Positions 30,244-43,194 of a DNA stretch of 64,000 nucleotides are shown here, in pieces; position 1 is the stretch's first letter, and the number at the start of each line of letters is the position of its first letter. The stretch lies in assembly GCF_000299935.1 (NCBI RefSeq), contig NZ_AMRL01000009.1, positions 62,001-126,000 on the forward strand. Reading direction: 5' to 3'. Origin of the DNA: Oceanibaculum indicum P24 (GTDB lineage Bacteria > Pseudomonadota > Alphaproteobacteria > Oceanibaculales > Oceanibaculaceae). Position numbers and translations under genes: made by a program. The notes under the pieces are model-generated. The model did no database searches and had not been told where the DNA came from. It worked only from the letters and a program-made list of their open reading frames with translations.

Positions 30244-31326
30244 ATGGAACAGCGCAGGGAGCCCGCCATGCCGGCCGGGCCGGTTGGCGGCAGCGCCGCC
30301 TGGACAGTGCCGCAGGTGATAATGCGCGACGACTGGATTTGCCGGCTGAGCGACAGCGACGTGGCGGAGATCGATGCGGCGGTGGCTGACAGCCGCGCGC
30401 GCGGCCTCGCCATCACCGAGATCGAGCGCGACGATTTCCCGCTCGACCGGCTGACGGCGCGGCTGGGAGCCTTGCGCGCGCAGATCCGCTCCGGGCTCGG
30501 TTTCGGCTATATCAAGGGGCTGCCGGTCTGGCGCTATGACCGCGAGACGCTGCTGCGCATCTATTGGGGGCTGGGCCGGCATATCGGCGACCCGGTGACG
30601 CAGAACCGCAATGGCCATCTGATCGCCCATGTCATCGATGTCGGCGACCGGGCGGGCGACAATAAGCGGTTGACCCAGAGCAATGCCGAACTGTGCTTCC
30701 ACGCCGATTCCTGCGATGTCGTGGCGCTGTTGTGCATCAACCGCGCACGGGAAGGCGGCGAGAGCATGATCGTCAGCGCGGTCGCCGTGCATGACGAGAT
30801 GATGCGCCGCCGCCCGGATTTGCTGCCGGAACTCTACAAGCCGGTCTATATGGACCGGCGCGGCGAGGTGCCGGACGGTAAGCTGCCCTGGTTCGGTATG
30901 CCGCTGTTCACCTGGCATCGCGGCCAGATCAACGGCTATGCCCCGATCCGGCAATATGTCGAATCGCTGGCGCGCTTCCCTGACGCGCCGCGCATCTCCA
31001 ACGCGCAGATGGCCGCGCTCGACCTGTTCTACGAGATATGCGAGGAGGAGGAGTTCTGCCTGCGCCTGCAGTTCGAGCCGGGCGACATCCAGTTCCTGCA
31101 GAACCATGTCGTGTTCCATTCCCGCACCGGCTTCACCGACTGGGACGAGGCGGAGAAGAAGCGCCATCTGATACGGCTGTGGCTGTCGCTGCCCGATGGC
31201 CGGCTGCTGCCGGATTCCTATGCCGAGAAATGGATCAATATCGAGCGCGGCACACGGCGCGGCGGCGTGCCGACGATGACGCCGCCGGTCATTCCGCTCG
31301 ATCCGATGGCGCGTGCTTATGGATAA
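30244..31326 (+). CDS. TauD/TfdA-family Fe(II)/2-oxoglutarate dioxygenase (first copy)
   Basis: A 360-residue member of the TauD/TfdA fold. The iron triad is visible as His-x-Asp in LCFHADSCD and the distal His in NHVVFHSRTGF; the 2-oxoglutarate-binding Arg is probably in KRHLIRLWL. Long family segments (RRRPDLLPEL, YMDRRGEV, RQYVESLARFPDAPR) are shared with the second copy at 41973-43028, so the two are paralogues. Substrate unknown. GGGGAGTGAGCG precedes the ATG. Controlled probably by the divergent LysR protein; a LysE exporter follows convergently. Confidence 0.88.
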   Translation: MEQRREPAMPAGPVGGSAAWTVPQVIMRDDWICRLSDSDVAEIDAAVADSRARGLAITEIERDDFPLDRLTARLGALRAQIRSGLGFGYIKGLPVWRYDRETLLRIYWGLGRHIGDPVTQNRNGHLIAHVIDVGDRAGDNKRLTQSNAELCFHADSCDVVALLCINRAREGGESMIVSAVAVHDEMMRRRPDLLPELYKPVYMDRRGEVPDGKLPWFGMPLFTWHRGQINGYAPIRQYVESLARFPDAPRISNAQMAALDLFYEICEEEEFCLRLQFEPGDIQFLQNHVVFHSRTGFTDWDEAEKKRHLIRLWLSLPDGRLLPDSYAEKWINIERGTRRGGVPTMTPPVIPLDPMARAYG

Positions 31327-34518: not shown

Positions 34519-34535
34519 TGTCACCGCCGTGTCAC
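34519..34535 (+). promoter_or_regulatory. Pho box upstream of pstS
   Basis: Direct repeat TGTCAC-N5-TGTCAC (34519-34524 and 34530-34535), an 11-base period, followed by AAAA. This is the half-site layout bound by PhoB. A -10-like TAGGCT lies about 16 bases downstream, with no -35, as expected for PhoB-activated promoters. The pstS start is about 140 bases further on, so the mRNA leader would be long. Confidence 0.78.
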
Positions 34536-34676: not shown

Positions 34677-35645
34677 ATGAAGAAGTTTTCTGCCGCGCTG
34701 GCCGTTGCCGCCGGCCTGCTGGTTTCGACCAGCGCCATTGCGCAGGGGGTCGATCCGAACCTGCCGTCCTACAAGCCGACCAGCGGCGTTTCGGGCAGCC
34801 TGAAGTCGATCGGTTCCGACACGCTGAACAACCTGATGACGCTGTGGGCCGAAGGCTTCCTGGCGCAGTACCCGAACGTGAAGATCGAGATCGAGGGCAA
34901 GGGCTCCTCGACCGCGCCGCCTGCGCTGATCGCCGGCACCGCGCAGTTCGGCCCGATGTCGCGCCCGATGAAGTCGAAGGAAATCGACGATTTCGAGAAG
35001 AAGTACGGCTACAAGCCGACCCCGATCCGCTCGGCGGTCGATGCGCTGGCCGTCTATGCGCACAAGGACAATCCGGTCAACTGCCTGTCCATGCAGCAGA
35101 TCGATGCGATCTTCTCCAAGACCCGCAAGGGCGGCGAGAGCGCCGACATCACCACCTGGGGCCAGGTTGGCGCCACCGGTGAGTGGGCCAGCATGCCGAT
35201 CTCGCTCTATGGCCGTAACTCGGCTTCGGGCACCTATGGCTACTTCAAGGAAGTCGCGCTGTTCGACGGCGACTACAAGGACAGCGTGAAGGAGCAGCCG
35301 GGTTCCTCCACCGTGGTGCAGGGCGTTGCCTCCGACAAGGGCGGCATCGGCTACTCCGGCGTCGGCTACAAGACCGCCGACGTGAAGTTCATCGAGATCA
35401 AGGGTGCCGACGGCAAGTGCTACGGCCCGACCGCCGAGAACGCCTATTCGGGTAACTTCCCGATCGCGCGTTTCCTCTACATCTACGTGAACAAGAACCC
35501 GAACCAGGCGCTTGACCCGGTCCGTGGCGAGTTCATCCGCTACATCTACTCCAAGCAGGGTCAGGAAGCGGTCGTGAAGGACGGCTTCTTCCCGGTTAAC
35601 CAGGGCCTCGCCGCCGAGGACCTGAAGAGCTTCGGCCTGATGTAA
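34677..35645 (+). CDS. pstS: Periplasmic phosphate-binding protein
   Basis: A 322-residue substrate-binding protein. The first 23 residues form a Sec signal peptide (KKFSAALAVAAGLLVSTSAIAQ, cut probably after AIA). Ligand segments are IGSDTLNN, GKGSSTAPPALIAG, MSRPMKSKEI and GRNSASGTYGYF, matching phosphate-binding loops. Start ATG 34677 has GGAG 10 bases upstream and begins the signal peptide; the frame is open further upstream. A terminator-like hairpin just after it should make pstS message much more abundant than pstCAB. Confidence 0.93.
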   Translation: MKKFSAALAVAAGLLVSTSAIAQGVDPNLPSYKPTSGVSGSLKSIGSDTLNNLMTLWAEGFLAQYPNVKIEIEGKGSSTAPPALIAGTAQFGPMSRPMKSKEIDDFEKKYGYKPTPIRSAVDALAVYAHKDNPVNCLSMQQIDAIFSKTRKGGESADITTWGQVGATGEWASMPISLYGRNSASGTYGYFKEVALFDGDYKDSVKEQPGSSTVVQGVASDKGGIGYSGVGYKTADVKFIEIKGADGKCYGPTAENAYSGNFPIARFLYIYVNKNPNQALDPVRGEFIRYIYSKQGQEAVVKDGFFPVNQGLAAEDLKSFGLM

Positions 35646-35655
35646 TCGGCTACGG

Positions 35656-35690
35656 TGCGGGCGGCGTTCGGCGCCGCCCGCATCTCTTTT
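35656..35690 (+). terminator. Partial terminator/attenuator between pstS and pstC
   Basis: A perfect 11-bp stem TGCGGGCGGCG/CGCCGCCCGCA (35656-35666 with 35672-35682), 5-base loop, then TCTCTTTT. The T-rich tail is broken by C, so termination is probably partial, leaving read-through into pstC. It explains unequal expression of binding protein and membrane parts. Confidence 0.85.
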
Positions 35691-35783
35691 GCTTGATCCT
35701 GTATTCTTTTATCCCTTTCTTCCTACGCTCCGGCGTCGCGCTGCTCTGGCGGGCGTCGTTCTGAAATCGGGCTGAGGGTTATC

Positions 35784-38417
35784 ATGGCCAGCGACGCCAA
35801 CGACGCTTCCACCGGAACCGGCAAGACTGCCATCGGCACGGTCCGGCGCCGCAAGGCGACCAGCGCTTCCGTCCTCATCACCGACAAGATCGCCGATTGG
35901 GGCATCACTATCGGTGGCCTGATGGTGATTGTTGCCGTGTTCGGCATCATGGTGTTCCTGGCCCAGGTGGTGGTGCCGCTGTTCCTTGGCGGCGATGTGC
36001 GCGACACGCGCACCTACCAGATCACGCCGGCAAAGCCTGTCGCCTGGATCAGCACCGACGAGTACCAGACCATCGGCATCCGCATTGCCGATGACGGGCG
36101 GATTTCCAGCTTCCATCTCGATACCGGCACGCCGCTGGACAGCGTCGAGCTGGATTTCGGCGGCCGGCAGATCACCGCGATGGGCTCCACCGCGGACGGT
36201 TACAATTTGGCATTCGGTTTCGAGGATGGCACGGTGCAGTTCGGTGTGATCCAGCCGAAGATCGAGATCCTGCCGGGCGATGCGCTGCCGACGGCGGCAA
36301 ACAAGCTGAACGACCGCGACCTGACAGACGGCACTGCCGTCTATTCCCGCATTCCGGGCAACCAGCTCCGCCGCGTCTCGCTGGAAACGAAGCTGGACGA
36401 ACCGCAGGCGATTTCGGAGGCCGGGCGTCCGATCCGCGCCATCGATTATCGCATCGGCGGCACGGCGGAACGGCCGACCCGGTCCTTCGTGACTGTGGAT
36501 GGCGACGGCGTGGCCCGCGTCAGCCGCACGGAAACCACGGTGAACCTGCTCACCCGGCAGGCCAGGACGCGTGTCCTGACCTCCACCCTGCCGGACCTGC
36601 CGGGCGGCATCCGGGTGACCGAGCTGCTGATGACCAGCCGTGCCGACCAGGTCTATGTCGCCGACGAGAACGGCACTATCTACCGCTACGACACGCGCGA
36701 TTTCGCTGCGCCGATCCTGGCCGAGACGATGAAGGCGTTCCCGGGCGCCGAGCGCCTTACGGTGCTGGGCTTCCTGAATGGCGAACAGGGGCTGGTCGCC
36801 GGCGGTTCGGAGGGTTCCGTGCGCATCTTCTACCGGCTGCAGCCGGAGAATGCCGGTACCAAGGACGGGTACAGGCTGACCCTGATCCGCGAGCTGGAGC
36901 CGCACACCGCGCCCGTGGTCAACTTCGCCGCCAGCCAGCGCAACAAGTCGCTGGTGACCATGGACCTCGACGGCAACGTCTGGCTGCGCCACAACACCAG
37001 CGAGCAGACCCTGCTGAAGCTGGAGCGTGATGCGCTAACGGACGAAGACACGCAGATGCTGCTGGCGCCGCGCAACGACGCCATCCTGATCGCCGACCGC
37101 ACGGGGCAGATAAATTACTGGACCTTCCAGGTGCCGCACCCGGAAGTGACCTCGCGCACCATCTTCGGCAAGGTCTGGTACGAGGGTTATGACGGGCCGA
37201 GCTACACCTGGCAGTCCTCCTCCGGCACTGACGTGTTCGAGCCGAAATTCTCGCTGACGCCGCTGATCTTCGGCACCATCAAGGCCACCGTCTATTCGCT
37301 GCTGTTCGCCATCCCGATCGCGCTGCTGGGTGCCATCTACACCTCGGAATTCGTGCATAGCCGCATCCGCGGAACCGTGAAGCCGGTGATGGAGATGATG
37401 GAATCGCTGCCGACCGTGGTGCTGGGCTTCATCGCCGCACTGCTGCTGGCGCCCATCGTCGAGACCTGGATCGCGGCGGTGCTGCTGGCCTTCGGCGCGC
37501 TGCCGCTGTCGCTGATGCTGGCGGCCTATTTGTGGCAGGCACTGCCGTCGCAGATGAAGCTGCGGCTGGATGGTATCCCGAAGTTCGCGATGATGTTCGT
37601 GGTCATCGGCCTTGGCTGCTACATCGCCTATGCCGCCGGCCCGCTGTTCGAGAATGTGTTCTTCTATGGCGACCTGAAAGCCTGGACCAACGGCGATATC
37701 GGCACCGGCCTGCCCTTCCTGTTCCTGGTGCTGCTGCCGCTGTCCTTCCTGGGCGTCAGCTATGTCTTCGGCCGCACGGTGGGCACGACCTACCGGCTTG
37801 CGCTGCGCGACATGCCGCAGAACCGGGCCTCGCTGGTCGATCTCGGCCGCTGGCTCGCCATGCTGGTTGCCGCCGGCATCGTCAGCTACATCCTGGCAGC
37901 GTCGCTGACCGCCATCGGCTATGACCCGCGCGGCGGTGTGGTCGATACTTACGTGCAGCGCAATGCGCTGGTGGTCGGCTTCGTGATGGGTTTCGCGGTC
38001 ATCCCGAACATCTACACCCTGGCGGAAGATGCGCTGAACGCGGTGCCGTCCTCGCTGCGCGCGGCCAGTCTGGCCGCCGGTGCCACACCTTGGCAGACGG
38101 CGATGTGGGTGGTGCTGCCGACCGCCATGTCCGGCGTGTTCGCGGCGGTAATGATCGGCATGGGGCGCGCCGTCGGCGAGACCATGATCGTGGTCATGGC
38201 GGCGGGCAACACGCCGATCCTGGACTGGAACGTCTTCAACGGCCTGCGCACGCTGTCCGCCAACATCGCGGTGGAACTGCCCGAGGCGGTGCAGGGCAGC
38301 ACGCTCTACCGCATGCTGTTCCTGGCGGCGCTGACGCTGTTCGCCATGACCTTCGTCATCAATACCGTGGCGGAAGTGATCCGCCAGCGCTTCCGCAAGC
38401 GCGCCTTCCAGCTTTGA
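35784..38417 (+). CDS. pstC: Phosphate ABC-transporter permease PstC, expanded form
   Basis: An 877-residue permease, far longer than the about 320 residues of E. coli PstC. Order: cytoplasmic start, first membrane helix (about 38-68), a periplasmic region of about 400 residues with repeated short beta-strand motifs ending in phrases like DGRISSFHLD, VYVADENGTIYRYD and LVTMDLDGNVWLRHN (beta-propeller-like), then the permease core from about residue 488. The EAA loop is AASLAAGATPWQTAMWVVLPTAMSG (about 760). Several extra hydrophobic helices lie between the early and late core helices. Long PstC with such an N-terminal region is known in Pseudomonas and Vibrio (DUF3708). Confidence 0.88.
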   Translation: MASDANDASTGTGKTAIGTVRRRKATSASVLITDKIADWGITIGGLMVIVAVFGIMVFLAQVVVPLFLGGDVRDTRTYQITPAKPVAWISTDEYQTIGIRIADDGRISSFHLDTGTPLDSVELDFGGRQITAMGSTADGYNLAFGFEDGTVQFGVIQPKIEILPGDALPTAANKLNDRDLTDGTAVYSRIPGNQLRRVSLETKLDEPQAISEAGRPIRAIDYRIGGTAERPTRSFVTVDGDGVARVSRTETTVNLLTRQARTRVLTSTLPDLPGGIRVTELLMTSRADQVYVADENGTIYRYDTRDFAAPILAETMKAFPGAERLTVLGFLNGEQGLVAGGSEGSVRIFYRLQPENAGTKDGYRLTLIRELEPHTAPVVNFAASQRNKSLVTMDLDGNVWLRHNTSEQTLLKLERDALTDEDTQMLLAPRNDAILIADRTGQINYWTFQVPHPEVTSRTIFGKVWYEGYDGPSYTWQSSSGTDVFEPKFSLTPLIFGTIKATVYSLLFAIPIALLGAIYTSEFVHSRIRGTVKPVMEMMESLPTVVLGFIAALLLAPIVETWIAAVLLAFGALPLSLMLAAYLWQALPSQMKLRLDGIPKFAMMFVVIGLGCYIAYAAGPLFENVFFYGDLKAWTNGDIGTGLPFLFLVLLPLSFLGVSYVFGRTVGTTYRLALRDMPQNRASLVDLGRWLAMLVAAGIVSYILAASLTAIGYDPRGGVVDTYVQRNALVVGFVMGFAVIPNIYTLAEDALNAVPSSLRAASLAAGATPWQTAMWVVLPTAMSGVFAAVMIGMGRAVGETMIVVMAAGNTPILDWNVFNGLRTLSANIAVELPEAVQGSTLYRMLFLAALTLFAMTFVINTVAEVIRQRFRKRAFQL

Positions 38418-38442
38418 TCCGGATATATCAGGGGAACCGGGA

Positions 38443-40179
38443 ATGACCGCGACCGCCGAAAAAGACATGAGCCGGACTGCCGCGAAGCCGCGTTCGGTGC
38501 GCAAATACTCGGCCGATATCTCGGCCGTCGGCGAGCCCTTCCTGTGGGGGCTTGGCGGCGCGCTGGCGCTGGGTATCATCCTGATTGCCGGGTTCCTCAC
38601 GCTGATCTTCTGGAATGGTGTCACTACCTTCTGGCCGAAGCCGGTGGCCGTGGTTACGCTGAATGATGGCGCCAAGGTTGCGGGCGAGCCCTTCCGGTCG
38701 GAGGTGTTCCGCCCCGATGCCGCCTTCCTGCAGGCGCTTACCCCCGCTCAGCGTGCCGAGGTTGCCGCCGATGACGGCTTCGTCAGCCGCACCATGTACC
38801 GGATCGGCAATTACGACCTGTTCGGCGAGGATTTCCGCTGGGTGCCGGAAACCCAGAAGGCCGATGTCTCCTATCCGGAGAATTTCTTCTTCTTCGAGCG
38901 CCAGGAATGGGGCGCTTTCGTCGGCACCATCGCGGCGGTCGATCTGGCCGGCCGCAAGCTGGAAGGGCCGGGGATCGATCTTTCGCTGCTGCATGACGAA
39001 CAGGAGGCGGCGCGCGACCGCTTCGAACGTATCCGCGAGATCGAGCGCGACGAGATCGGCGCCATCAATCATTACCTGAACGAGCTTCGGCTCGATGTCC
39101 GCCGGGCGGAGCTGCGCTATGGCCCGGACAGCCCGGAAGTGCGCGAGGCGAAGGCGGAAGCCGAGGCACGCGCCGCCGAACTGCAGGTCGAATACCGGGC
39201 ACTGGCCGAAACCGCTTCTGCCATCAAGGCGGAGGATGCGCAGTACCGCATCACCCTGGCCGCAGTCGATGGCCAGACCAAGGAGATGCAGCTGTCGCAG
39301 ATCGTGCGCTTCTATGCTGCCAACGACCTGTCCTATTTTGAGAAATGGGGCGTGTACCTGTCGCGCTGGGGCGAGTTCCTGAGCGAAGACCCGCGCGAGG
39401 CCAATACCGAGGGCGGCATCCTGCCGGCAATCTTCGGTACGGTCGTGATGACGCTGATGATGGTCATCGTGGTCGCCCCGTTCGGTGTCATCACCGCGCT
39501 CTACCTGCGCGAATACGCCAAGCAGGGCCGTCTGGTCGCCATCGTCCGCATCTCGGTGAACAACCTGGCCGGCGTGCCTTCCATCGTCTATGGCGTGTTC
39601 GGCGTCGGCTTCTTCGCCTACACGGTGGGCGGCGGCATCGATGCGCTGTTCTTCCCGGAGCGGCTGCCCAGCCCGACCTTCGGCACCGGCGGCATCCTGT
39701 GGTCGGCGCTGACGCTGGCGCTGCTGACCGTGCCGGTGGTCATCGTCGCCTCGGAGGAGGCGCTGGCCGCCGTGCCGCGTTCGATGCGGGAAGGCTCGCT
39801 GGCTTGCGGTGCCTCGAAGTGGCAGACCATCAAGTGGATCGTCCTGCCCCGCGCGATGCCAGGTGTGATGACCGGCCTGATCCTGGCCATGGCGCGCGGC
39901 GCCGGCGAGGTGGCGCCGCTGATGCTGGTGGGTGTGGTGAAGCTTGCGCCGGAGCTGCCGGTTGACGGGTTCTTCCCCTATATCCATCTGGAACGCAGCT
40001 TCATGCATCTGGGCTTCCACATCTTCGACGTGGGTTTCCAGTCGCGCAATTCCGAAGCCGGCAAGCCGATGGTGTTCGTCACCACGCTGCTGCTGCTGGC
40101 CCTGATCGTCCTGATGAATTCCTCGGCGATCTATATCCGCAACCGGCTGAAGAAGAAGTTTGTCGGCAGCCAGTTCTGA
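38443..40179 (+). CDS. pstA: Phosphate ABC-transporter permease PstA, expanded form
   Basis: A 578-residue permease, about twice the E. coli length. Helix 1 at about 34-58; then a periplasmic region (about 60-320) including a strongly charged stretch at about 186-266, rich in Glu, Arg and Ala with heptad character, probably a coiled coil; then the permease core from about 326 with EAA loop EGSLACGASKWQTIKWIVLPRAMPG. The N-terminal part corresponds to the DUF3333 region found in long PstA proteins. It begins 25 bases after pstC; GGGGAACCGGGA precedes the ATG. Confidence 0.9.
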   Translation: MTATAEKDMSRTAAKPRSVRKYSADISAVGEPFLWGLGGALALGIILIAGFLTLIFWNGVTTFWPKPVAVVTLNDGAKVAGEPFRSEVFRPDAAFLQALTPAQRAEVAADDGFVSRTMYRIGNYDLFGEDFRWVPETQKADVSYPENFFFFERQEWGAFVGTIAAVDLAGRKLEGPGIDLSLLHDEQEAARDRFERIREIERDEIGAINHYLNELRLDVRRAELRYGPDSPEVREAKAEAEARAAELQVEYRALAETASAIKAEDAQYRITLAAVDGQTKEMQLSQIVRFYAANDLSYFEKWGVYLSRWGEFLSEDPREANTEGGILPAIFGTVVMTLMMVIVVAPFGVITALYLREYAKQGRLVAIVRISVNNLAGVPSIVYGVFGVGFFAYTVGGGIDALFFPERLPSPTFGTGGILWSALTLALLTVPVVIVASEEALAAVPRSMREGSLACGASKWQTIKWIVLPRAMPGVMTGLILAMARGAGEVAPLMLVGVVKLAPELPVDGFFPYIHLERSFMHLGFHIFDVGFQSRNSEAGKPMVFVTTLLLLALIVLMNSSAIYIRNRLKKKFVGSQF

Positions 40180-40210
40180 TCGCTAACCGCCGCCCCGGAG
40201 TCTAGATCCC

Positions 40211-41022
<812 letters not shown>

Positions 41023-41047
<25 letters not shown>

Positions 41048-41973
41048 TCGCGCAGGGCCGCCGCCAGCCCGGTGAAGGCCGGGTAGGCGGCGTCCAGCAG
41101 GCTGACCGGGATCGCCTCCAGATAGGCGGCGAACGGGCCCTTGTCGGTGAAGCGCCGGATGAAGGCATCGCGGTCGAAGGCCGGGCCCATGCGGCCCGGT
41201 AAATCGCCCGCGATCACCACGCCGCCACGCGCATCGAAGCTCATGGCAAGGTCGCCGGCGATGCCGCCCAGCATCGCCGAATGGGCGGACGCTGCGGCCT
41301 TCGCCTGCGGATCTCCGCAGCCCAGTGCCGCCGCCGTGACCTCCTCCGGCGTCGCCTCCCGCCCCGAGAGAGCCCGATACAGCCGGGCGAGGCCAGGGGC
41401 CGCCAACACATCCTCCGCCGACAGATGCCCGCTGTCCGGGCGCAGCTTTTCCAGCAGCGCCGCCTCCGCCACGTCGCGGGCGGCCAGCGTCACATGGCCG
41501 CCTTCGCTGGAGGCGACATGGAAGCTGCTGCCAGCGGGGATCAGCGCCGCGACCCCTAACCCTGTTCCGGGAGCAACCACCAGCCGCGCAGCAGCGGGGT
41601 TGGCGGTACCTGGCTTCAGCGGCAGGAACGCGCTCTCCGGCAGGTCGGGCAGGGCGCGGGCGATGGCGGCCACGTCATTCATCACGCACACCGGCGCGAA
41701 GCCGAAACGTGCGGCAAGGCCGGAGGCGGAGAAGCGCCAGGGATGGTTGGTCAGCGCCACCTCGTCGCCGGTCACCGGCCCGGCGACAGCCAGCGCCAGC
41801 GCGTCCGGGCGATGGCCGGTGCGGTCCATCCAGTGCTGGATCGCCGCTTCCAGCGTGTCGTGGGCGGCAGTCGGGAACACGTCAGGCGTGCCGATTCGGC
41901 CATCCTGATCCAGCAGGGCAAAGCGCGTGTTGGTGCCGCCGATATCGGCCAGCAGCGCGGTTCCGCTCCGCAT
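41023..41973 (-). CDS. glk: Glucokinase
   Basis: A 316-residue glucokinase of the bacterial hexokinase family (not ROK). [16 protein letters not shown] is the phosphate-1 motif, [20 protein letters not shown] holds the catalytic Asp region, [13 protein letters not shown] is phosphate-2, and [13 protein letters not shown] contacts sugar. Makes glucose 6-phosphate from glucose and ATP. Start ATG 41973 overlaps the stop of the dioxygenase gene by one base (TGATG). Its 3' end overlaps pstB. Confidence 0.93.
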
Positions 41974-43028
41974 CAGATCGGAGTCAGCGGCGCGTGCAGC
42001 CGTGTTTCGGGCAGGATGATGCCGCCGCGCTCGCCCGGCGTCACGCTGCCGTAGCGCTGGGCATAGGCCGGGGGCAGGGCGCGCGCACTTTCCGGCGCCA
42101 GCCACAGCCGCAGCAGGTGGCGCTTTTTGGTGTCCTCCTCCCAATCCTCGAAGCCGGTGCGGTCATGCAGGATGGTGTGGTTGTGCACGAACTGCAGGTC
42201 GCCGGGGCGAAGCACCATGGTGAAGTTGAGGGCGGGATCGTCGGCCAGCGCGTCGAACAGGTCCAGCGCCTCCACCGTCTCCGGTGACAGGCGGGGCGCA
42301 TCCTCGAAGCGCTGCGCCGAATTGATGTATTGCCGCTGATAGATGACGGAGATCAGCCCGTCATGCACGCTGAACACCGGAATCTCGAAAAAGGGTTTCT
42401 GGCCGGGGGAGACCTCGCCGCGCCGGTCGGTGGCGACGGGGCGCAGCAGGTGCGGCAGCAGGTCGGGCCGGCGACGGTGGATCTCGTTATAGATCGTCAT
42501 CGAGCTGACCAGCGCCGAATGGCCGCCGGACTTTGCCGCCTTGAGGCAGAGCAGCCCGACCACATCGCAGGAATCGGTATGGAAGGTCTGGCGCTCGCGG
42601 GTCTGGTAGATGCGCACATTCGGATCGTTGGAGGCGAGGCCCAGATCGCGCACATGGCCCAGGATATGGCCCTTGCCGTTCTGCGACTTGGGATTGCCCA
42701 GATGCCGGCCGATGCCGACGAAGGCGGCGGCGGACAGCTCGATGGGCCAGTCATCGACCGGCAGGCCGCGGAACAGCACGAAGCCGCGTCCGGTCAGCAA
42801 TTCCTCCAGCGCTTCCGCCAGCACCGGCCCCAGTGTCGGCAGCGGGAAGTCCGCCTTGCCTATCCGCGCAATATCGATGCCTTGCGCGAGGGCGGCCCTG
42901 GCGGCCTGCTCCACCTCGGCGACATGGGCGGGGGACAGCGGCAGAATCCACTCCTGCTCGCGGGCCAGCATGTCGGGTCCGTACCAGGCGGAGGGGCCGG
43001 TCATTTCAGGCGGCAGGGGGGCTGTCAT
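41973..43028 (-). CDS. TauD/TfdA-family Fe(II)/2-oxoglutarate dioxygenase (second copy)
   Basis: A 351-residue paralogue of the protein at 30244-31326. His-x-Asp in TFHTDSCDVVGLL, distal His in VHNHTILHDRTGF, and an Arg in KRHLLRLWLA form the iron and 2-oxoglutarate site. It also shares RHLGNPKSQNGKGHILGHVRD with RHIGDPVTQNRNGHLIAHVID of the first copy. Substrate unknown. ATG 43028 has GAGGA about 8 bases upstream. Translated with glk by stop-start overlap, an unusual partnership. Divergent from the PQQ-type dehydrogenase gene. Confidence 0.87.
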   Translation of the reverse strand: MTAPLPPEMTGPSAWYGPDMLAREQEWILPLSPAHVAEVEQAARAALAQGIDIARIGKADFPLPTLGPVLAEALEELLTGRGFVLFRGLPVDDWPIELSAAAFVGIGRHLGNPKSQNGKGHILGHVRDLGLASNDPNVRIYQTRERQTFHTDSCDVVGLLCLKAAKSGGHSALVSSMTIYNEIHRRRPDLLPHLLRPVATDRRGEVSPGQKPFFEIPVFSVHDGLISVIYQRQYINSAQRFEDAPRLSPETVEALDLFDALADDPALNFTMVLRPGDLQFVHNHTILHDRTGFEDWEEDTKKRHLLRLWLAPESARALPPAYAQRYGSVTPGERGGIILPETRLHAPLTPI

Positions 43029-43194
43029 CGGGAAGGCGTCCTCGGTCGCGTGTTCTGATTTTCGCGCAGTATTCCCCGCCGCTTGGCAGGGGTCAACGCA
43101 TAGGACAGCGTCAGGCCGGCGGGTTGACCGGTGGGAATGTGCCCCCACCTCAGAAAGGCACCCCAGAGACGGGGACATGGTTCAAGGAGAGACG

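Follow-up and report, generated by a model that had tools for sequence, protein, structure and literature searches.

The four-gene operon at 34677-41047 in the window (the whole analysed stretch of DNA, 64 kb) most likely encodes a PstSCAB-type phosphate importer, with phosphate import as its predicted function. Both permease subunits of this importer carry large inserts: in PstC, residues 71-449 are predicted with confidence to form a seven-bladed WD40-type propeller closed in a ring, and in PstA, residues 65-312 are predicted, again with confidence, to form a beta domain interrupted by an antiparallel helical hairpin. The features are as follows.

34519-34535, plus strand: Pho-box-like tandem TGTCAY-N5-TGTCAY, about 140 bases 5′ of the pstS start
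34677-35645, plus strand: pstS, phosphate-binding protein, 322 aa, ATG at 34677 (TIGR02136, 258.9 bits, cut-off 206.6)
35784-38417, plus strand: pstC, extended permease, 877 aa (TIGR02138, 181.9 bits, E 1.4e-53, cut-off 196.45)
35874-35984, plus strand: PstC helix 1, residues about 31-67 (hydropathy and model)
35991-37142, plus strand: PstC predicted periplasmic seven-bladed WD40-type propeller, residues 70-453 (AlphaFold model and structure comparison)
37254-37466, plus strand: PstC canonical helices 2-3, residues 491-561
37467-37658, plus strand: PstC extra-helix pair 1, residues 562-625, common to P. aeruginosa and Aeromonas
37704-37946, plus strand: PstC 81-residue insertion with extra-helix pair 2, residues 641-721, not in P. 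aeruginosa or Aeromonas
37947-38414, plus strand: PstC canonical helices 4-6 and EAA loop, residues 722-877
38443-40179, plus strand: pstA, extended permease, 578 aa (TIGR00974, 235.7 bits, cut-off 193.45)
38635-38976, plus strand: PstA, opening portion of the predicted periplasmic beta domain, residues 65-178, running into a putative Sm-like barrel
38977-39243, plus strand: PstA predicted antiparallel helical hairpin within the barrel, helices 180-226 and 231-266
39244-39378, plus strand: PstA predicted final barrel strands and helix 298-312, residues 268-312
39379-40176, plus strand: PstA permease core, residues 313-578
40211-41047, plus strand: pstB, ATPase subunit, 278 aa (TIGR00972, 394.2 bits, cut-off 343.2)

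The genes lie in the order pstS-pstC-pstA-pstB with small intergenic gaps, and the pstC and pstA reading frames are intact, which bears out the lengths of 877 and 578 residues given by a first-pass annotation of this DNA. PstS is 56% identical to PstS of P. aeruginosa. PstA, PstB, and PstS score above their curated cut-offs, whereas PstC stays slightly under its own. As PstC of P. aeruginosa also misses the TIGR02138 cut-off (188.6 bits), the shortfall is, to judge from the sequences, a limit of a model built on small PstC proteins and does not define what a Pst protein is; PstC is assigned as a Pst permease because of the operon in which it lies and its three companion subunits. The genome (3.95 Mb, 71 contigs, 98% complete) has no Pst permease pair besides this pstC/pstA.

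The first-pass annotation had also remarked that phoU is not adjacent. Indeed, no phoU adjoins the pst operon, while in several orthologous operons this gene lies directly after pstB. The absence is nevertheless no oddity but a matter of gene order rather than loss, because phoR, phoU, and phoB form a cluster on another contig (L042:5989-8985), with no pst gene in between. Upstream of pstS, TGTCAC-N5-TGTCAC at 34519-34535 is the single exact match to TGTCAY-N5-TGTCAY in 64 kb, against 0.01 expected, for a pattern picked after inspection of the sequence 5′ of pstS. A similar tandem precedes pstS in 4 of the 23 orthologous loci checked (L013, L027, L029, and L035), some of the 23 having little upstream sequence. 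A search with the E. coli-type Pho box consensus, allowing up to three mismatches, gave no excess over chance. The tandem is a plausible candidate PhoB site, and the pst operon is probably under PhoB control.

A Na+/Pi cotransporter of 632 aa with C-terminal PhoU domains is encoded elsewhere in the same genome (L043:5800-7698). It may provide a low-affinity phosphate route, since no Pit (PHO4) match was found in the genome. The pst operon is flanked by genes for two similar proteins on opposite strands (30244-31326 and 41973-43178), apparently TauD-like dioxygenases to judge by their sequences only.

On which side of the membrane do the inserts lie? According to hydropathy, each large loop connects helix 1 to helix 2 and measures 420 aa in PstC and 258 aa in PstA. 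The orthologues have loops of 415-432 aa and 255-260 aa, respectively, so that insert sizes are stable at about 50% sequence identity; such near constancy argues against random or disordered sequence. The helix count and the distribution of K and R (positive-inside rule) place the inserts outside, and we predict with confidence that both are periplasmic, while the N-termini, the loop past helix 2, and the C-termini are cytoplasmic. The earlier proposal that both inserts follow the first helix and face the periplasm agrees with these two lines of evidence.

Single-chain AlphaFold models contain both the propeller and the hairpin. In the AlphaFold2 model of PstC, based on 25 orthologues, residues 71-449 are all-beta, with 29 strands and pLDDT of about 77-91 per ten-residue block. 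The strands group into seven four-stranded blades, with strand 1 (71-79) completing the last of them; the blades were assigned and counted manually on the strands listed by DSSP. Every blade has a turn glycine between its strands 2 and 3 (G105, G149, G242, G297, G344, G397, and G441), and five of these, G105, G149, G297, G397, and G441, are invariant across the 25 orthologues. Comparison with solved WD40 structures by VIA-align gave Z of 24-25.6 over roughly 290-320 residues. The approximately 400 residues of beta-rich repeats which had been noticed in the sequence thus correspond to a predicted propeller. No Pfam model, WD40 families included, reaches its cut-off on this insert or on that of PstA. 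Only 8% of propeller positions are invariant versus more than 50% in the permease core, and this weak conservation fits a scaffold but does not point directly to a binding site.

Extra helices within the PstC permease had likewise been noticed, and there are four, all between the third and the fourth canonical helix; Pseudomonas shares two of them and lacks the two in residues 641-721. Helix positions from the model and from hydropathy add up to ten transmembrane helices for PstC; a simple hydropathy scan counts eight or nine, as neighbours merge. In both the PstC and the PstA model the permease part has low to middling confidence, and we took from it no more than the helix positions.

In PstA, the ten-residue blocks of residues 65-312 have pLDDT of 77-96 (AlphaFold2), and the hairpin, helices 180-226 and 231-266, reaches 90-96. 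Here the earlier reading of a charged, probably coiled-coil insert found its counterpart in the model. In Foldseek, Sm-like proteins rank first for the beta domain, at probabilities of up to 0.94 and weak E-values, 0.06 or worse. Structural matches of the hairpin include MacA (5nik_D, Z 7.9), but with helical hairpins a Z value near 8 does not discriminate. Many unrelated long-helix proteins appear in the Foldseek list for PstA beyond the barrel and in the VIA list for the hairpin, and no function was drawn from them.

How widespread is this architecture, and do its two parts occur together? We counted open frames of at least 700 aa as long PstC and of at least 520 aa as long PstA. Long PstC was detected in 59 of 398 Pseudomonadota genomes (about 15%) and long PstA in all 59 of those, which are related to one another and do not represent independent events. 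With the window's own excluded, the PstC frames among them measure 707-817 aa (median 756), so the PstC subtype of the window is the rarer one. The full forms have PstC and PstA loops of 420 and 258 aa in the window and 385 and 254 aa in P. aeruginosa. In reduced relatives, the corresponding pairs are 244 and 217 aa (G383), 15 and 168 (G395), 9 and 167 (G050), 7 and 115 (G397), and 4 and 121 (G154).

Both parts are present in reduced form in G383 and both are missing from G154 and G397. G050 and G395 have no propeller; compared with the window, their PstA loop is short of about 90 residues, which is the size of the hairpin. The exception is G086 (L079:2208-5035), where the propeller is gone (PstC loop of 15 aa) and the PstA loop of 219 aa keeps the hairpin; the two are therefore not strictly interdependent. 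The sequences thus indicate that propeller and hairpin tend to come and go together, and since the lineages without a propeller are mostly without a hairpin, with this one exception, the inserts probably work together. This joint occurrence lends indirect support to the suggestion in the first-pass annotation that the two could meet each other. Their loss in several lineages indicates that they are dispensable for transport as such.

A single scan across 85,000 species genomes revealed 29 related loci, with the same operon and sizes wherever the locus was long enough. By their record titles, these belong to Alphaproteobacteria, Rhodocyclales, Burkholderiales, Gammaproteobacteria, and Thermodesulfobacteriota. 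In a tree of PstA these groups are intermixed, and the window is placed with L013 and Telmatospirillum, next to Rhodocyclales; many entries are metagenome-assembled genomes, for which single placements may reflect binning errors. Because the tree mixes the groups, it suggests that the operon, with the subtype carrying two helices in residues 641-721, has spread horizontally.

What could the two inserts do together? The explanation which we consider best, and to which we give an even chance, is a high-affinity PstSCAB importer, probably PhoB-controlled, with a periplasmic platform for docking of PstS and gating. The propeller and the barrel with its hairpin would lie side by side where the PstC-PstA pair faces the periplasm, and there they would receive and position phosphate-loaded PstS. 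Docking would be coupled to opening of the permease and thereby also to the PstB-PhoU-PhoR signal, while the four extra PstC helices would widen the transmembrane part and carry the propeller. We prefer this explanation because of the joint presence of the inserts, their constant size, their position on the PstS-docking face, and the role as interaction platforms that WD40 propellers usually have.

That same role would also suit inserts tethering the importer to the envelope, whether to peptidoglycan, the outer membrane, a phosphate porin, or a periplasmic phosphatase, with phosphate handed over locally and not by free diffusion. The long charged hairpin has the general shape of the periplasm-spanning hairpins of other machines, as in the MacA match, but a Z of this size does not discriminate; moreover, we recognised by eye no porin or phosphatase gene beside the operon, and the hairpin and the propeller, which covary, are each other's first candidate partner. 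Such a tether seems unlikely to us. A periplasmic sensor or adaptor acting mainly on PhoR-PhoU signalling, and less on transport, is quite improbable. Pst systems do signal phosphate status via PhoU and PhoR, as is established for E. coli, and the position of phoU after pstB in several orthologous operons agrees with such a role; to our knowledge, however, E. coli signals without such insert domains, and Pst subunits of E. coli size have no insert.

The poor conservation of the insert sequences, together with their loss in several lineages, where the two parts disappear largely together, would be in line with mainly structural inserts that keep the PstC-PstA heterodimer stable, with no docking or signalling role of their own (constructive neutral drift). 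Near-constant size and fold over wide divergence, and the apparent horizontal spread of the operon, suggest a benefit instead, and we regard this explanation as distinctly unlikely.

Which part of this picture is new? The kind of protein is already named in databases, and the long Pseudomonas PstC is annotated. The propeller and barrel-hairpin architecture, widespread in Proteobacteria, is undescribed within the open-access literature searched, and the window adds a two-helix subtype. The passages considered from PMC7250820, on periplasmic phosphate buffering, hold nothing on these domains. The lack of any account of Pst permeases with a propeller or hairpin in the open-access papers searched is weak evidence of novelty, as subscription papers mostly lie outside that literature.

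The Pst system is the standard model of bacterial phosphate uptake and sensing, and this model is based on the small permeases of E. coli; in the 59 of 398 sampled Pseudomonadota genomes, the permeases are roughly twice as large. If the inserts control docking or signalling, models of uptake and Pho regulation for Pseudomonas and its relatives need a new element. Tentatively, and with rather less than even confidence, we propose that many Proteobacteria, P. aeruginosa included, import phosphate by a hitherto undescribed type of ABC importer. Its periplasmic docking tower, made of a propeller on one permease and a barrel-hairpin on the other, would control both PstS delivery and the phosphate signal, the window representing the subtype with two more helices. 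Natural relatives without one or both parts, such as G086, are test cases for their separate roles.

Comparison with known systems can be made at several levels. At the level of fold, the WD40 propellers of Sec12, WDR33, and G-protein beta are the same as the predicted PstC propeller (Z about 24-25.6); the identity is 8-14%, and the fold likeness is no evidence of function. The small Pst with solved structure (PDB 9k3s, 9k3x, and 9k3y), of E. coli size, matches the window by sequence in the permease cores. Its subunits of 319 and 296 residues are 558 and 282 residues shorter, and the inserts have no sequence match in it.

Another enlarged Pst, with DUF3708 (PF12501) in PstC and DUF3333 (PF11812) in PstA, is alphaproteobacterial and likewise extended in the N-terminal parts of both permeases. 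Its PstC frames are mostly of 460-500 aa and its PstA frames mostly of 430-460 aa, and about half of the 96 genomes sampled from the window's class have this enlargement. The first-pass annotation had proposed a length comparison with proteins of these families, and a link to them is not supported: there is no match to either protein even at E = 1, none of either family in the window's genome, and when the inserts were compared by profile with 14 proteins from each family, on shallow alignments, the probabilities stayed below 1%. The DUF3708/DUF3333 type thus appears to be a separate kind of enlargement from the propeller and hairpin, the shallow alignments leaving room for a very remote link.

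The PstC and PstA of Aeromonas caviae match those of the window end to end, helix 1 and the propeller loop included, but lack PstC residues 641-721. The record containing this pst operon with phoU (L046:1-12190) is filed as a plasmid; at 4.9 Mb, it looks by its size like a mislabelled chromosome.

In P. aeruginosa (L045:1516-3801), PstC is annotated with 677 aa from position 1768, past helix 1. Upstream ATG codons in the same frame give 753, 758, or 761 aa, and the added part aligns with helix 1, so the annotated start looks too late. The public name of this protein, "ABC transporter permease subunit", fits with its missing the TIGR02138 cut-off.

The Pst of P. aeruginosa (PstC WP_003123734.1, PstA WP_003096667.1) has phoU after pstB, and its PstC lacks the 81-residue insertion and about 30 propeller residues. 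It has the same pstSCAB order, and the kinship with Pseudomonas-type transporters which had been surmised from the sequence is confirmed by end-to-end alignment of PstC and PstA. Common to both systems are helix 1, the propeller-sized PstC loop, the PstA loop bearing the hairpin, and extra-helix pair 1. With such a loop, a hairpin, and alignment over the whole length, the importer of the window belongs to the propeller type of Pst.
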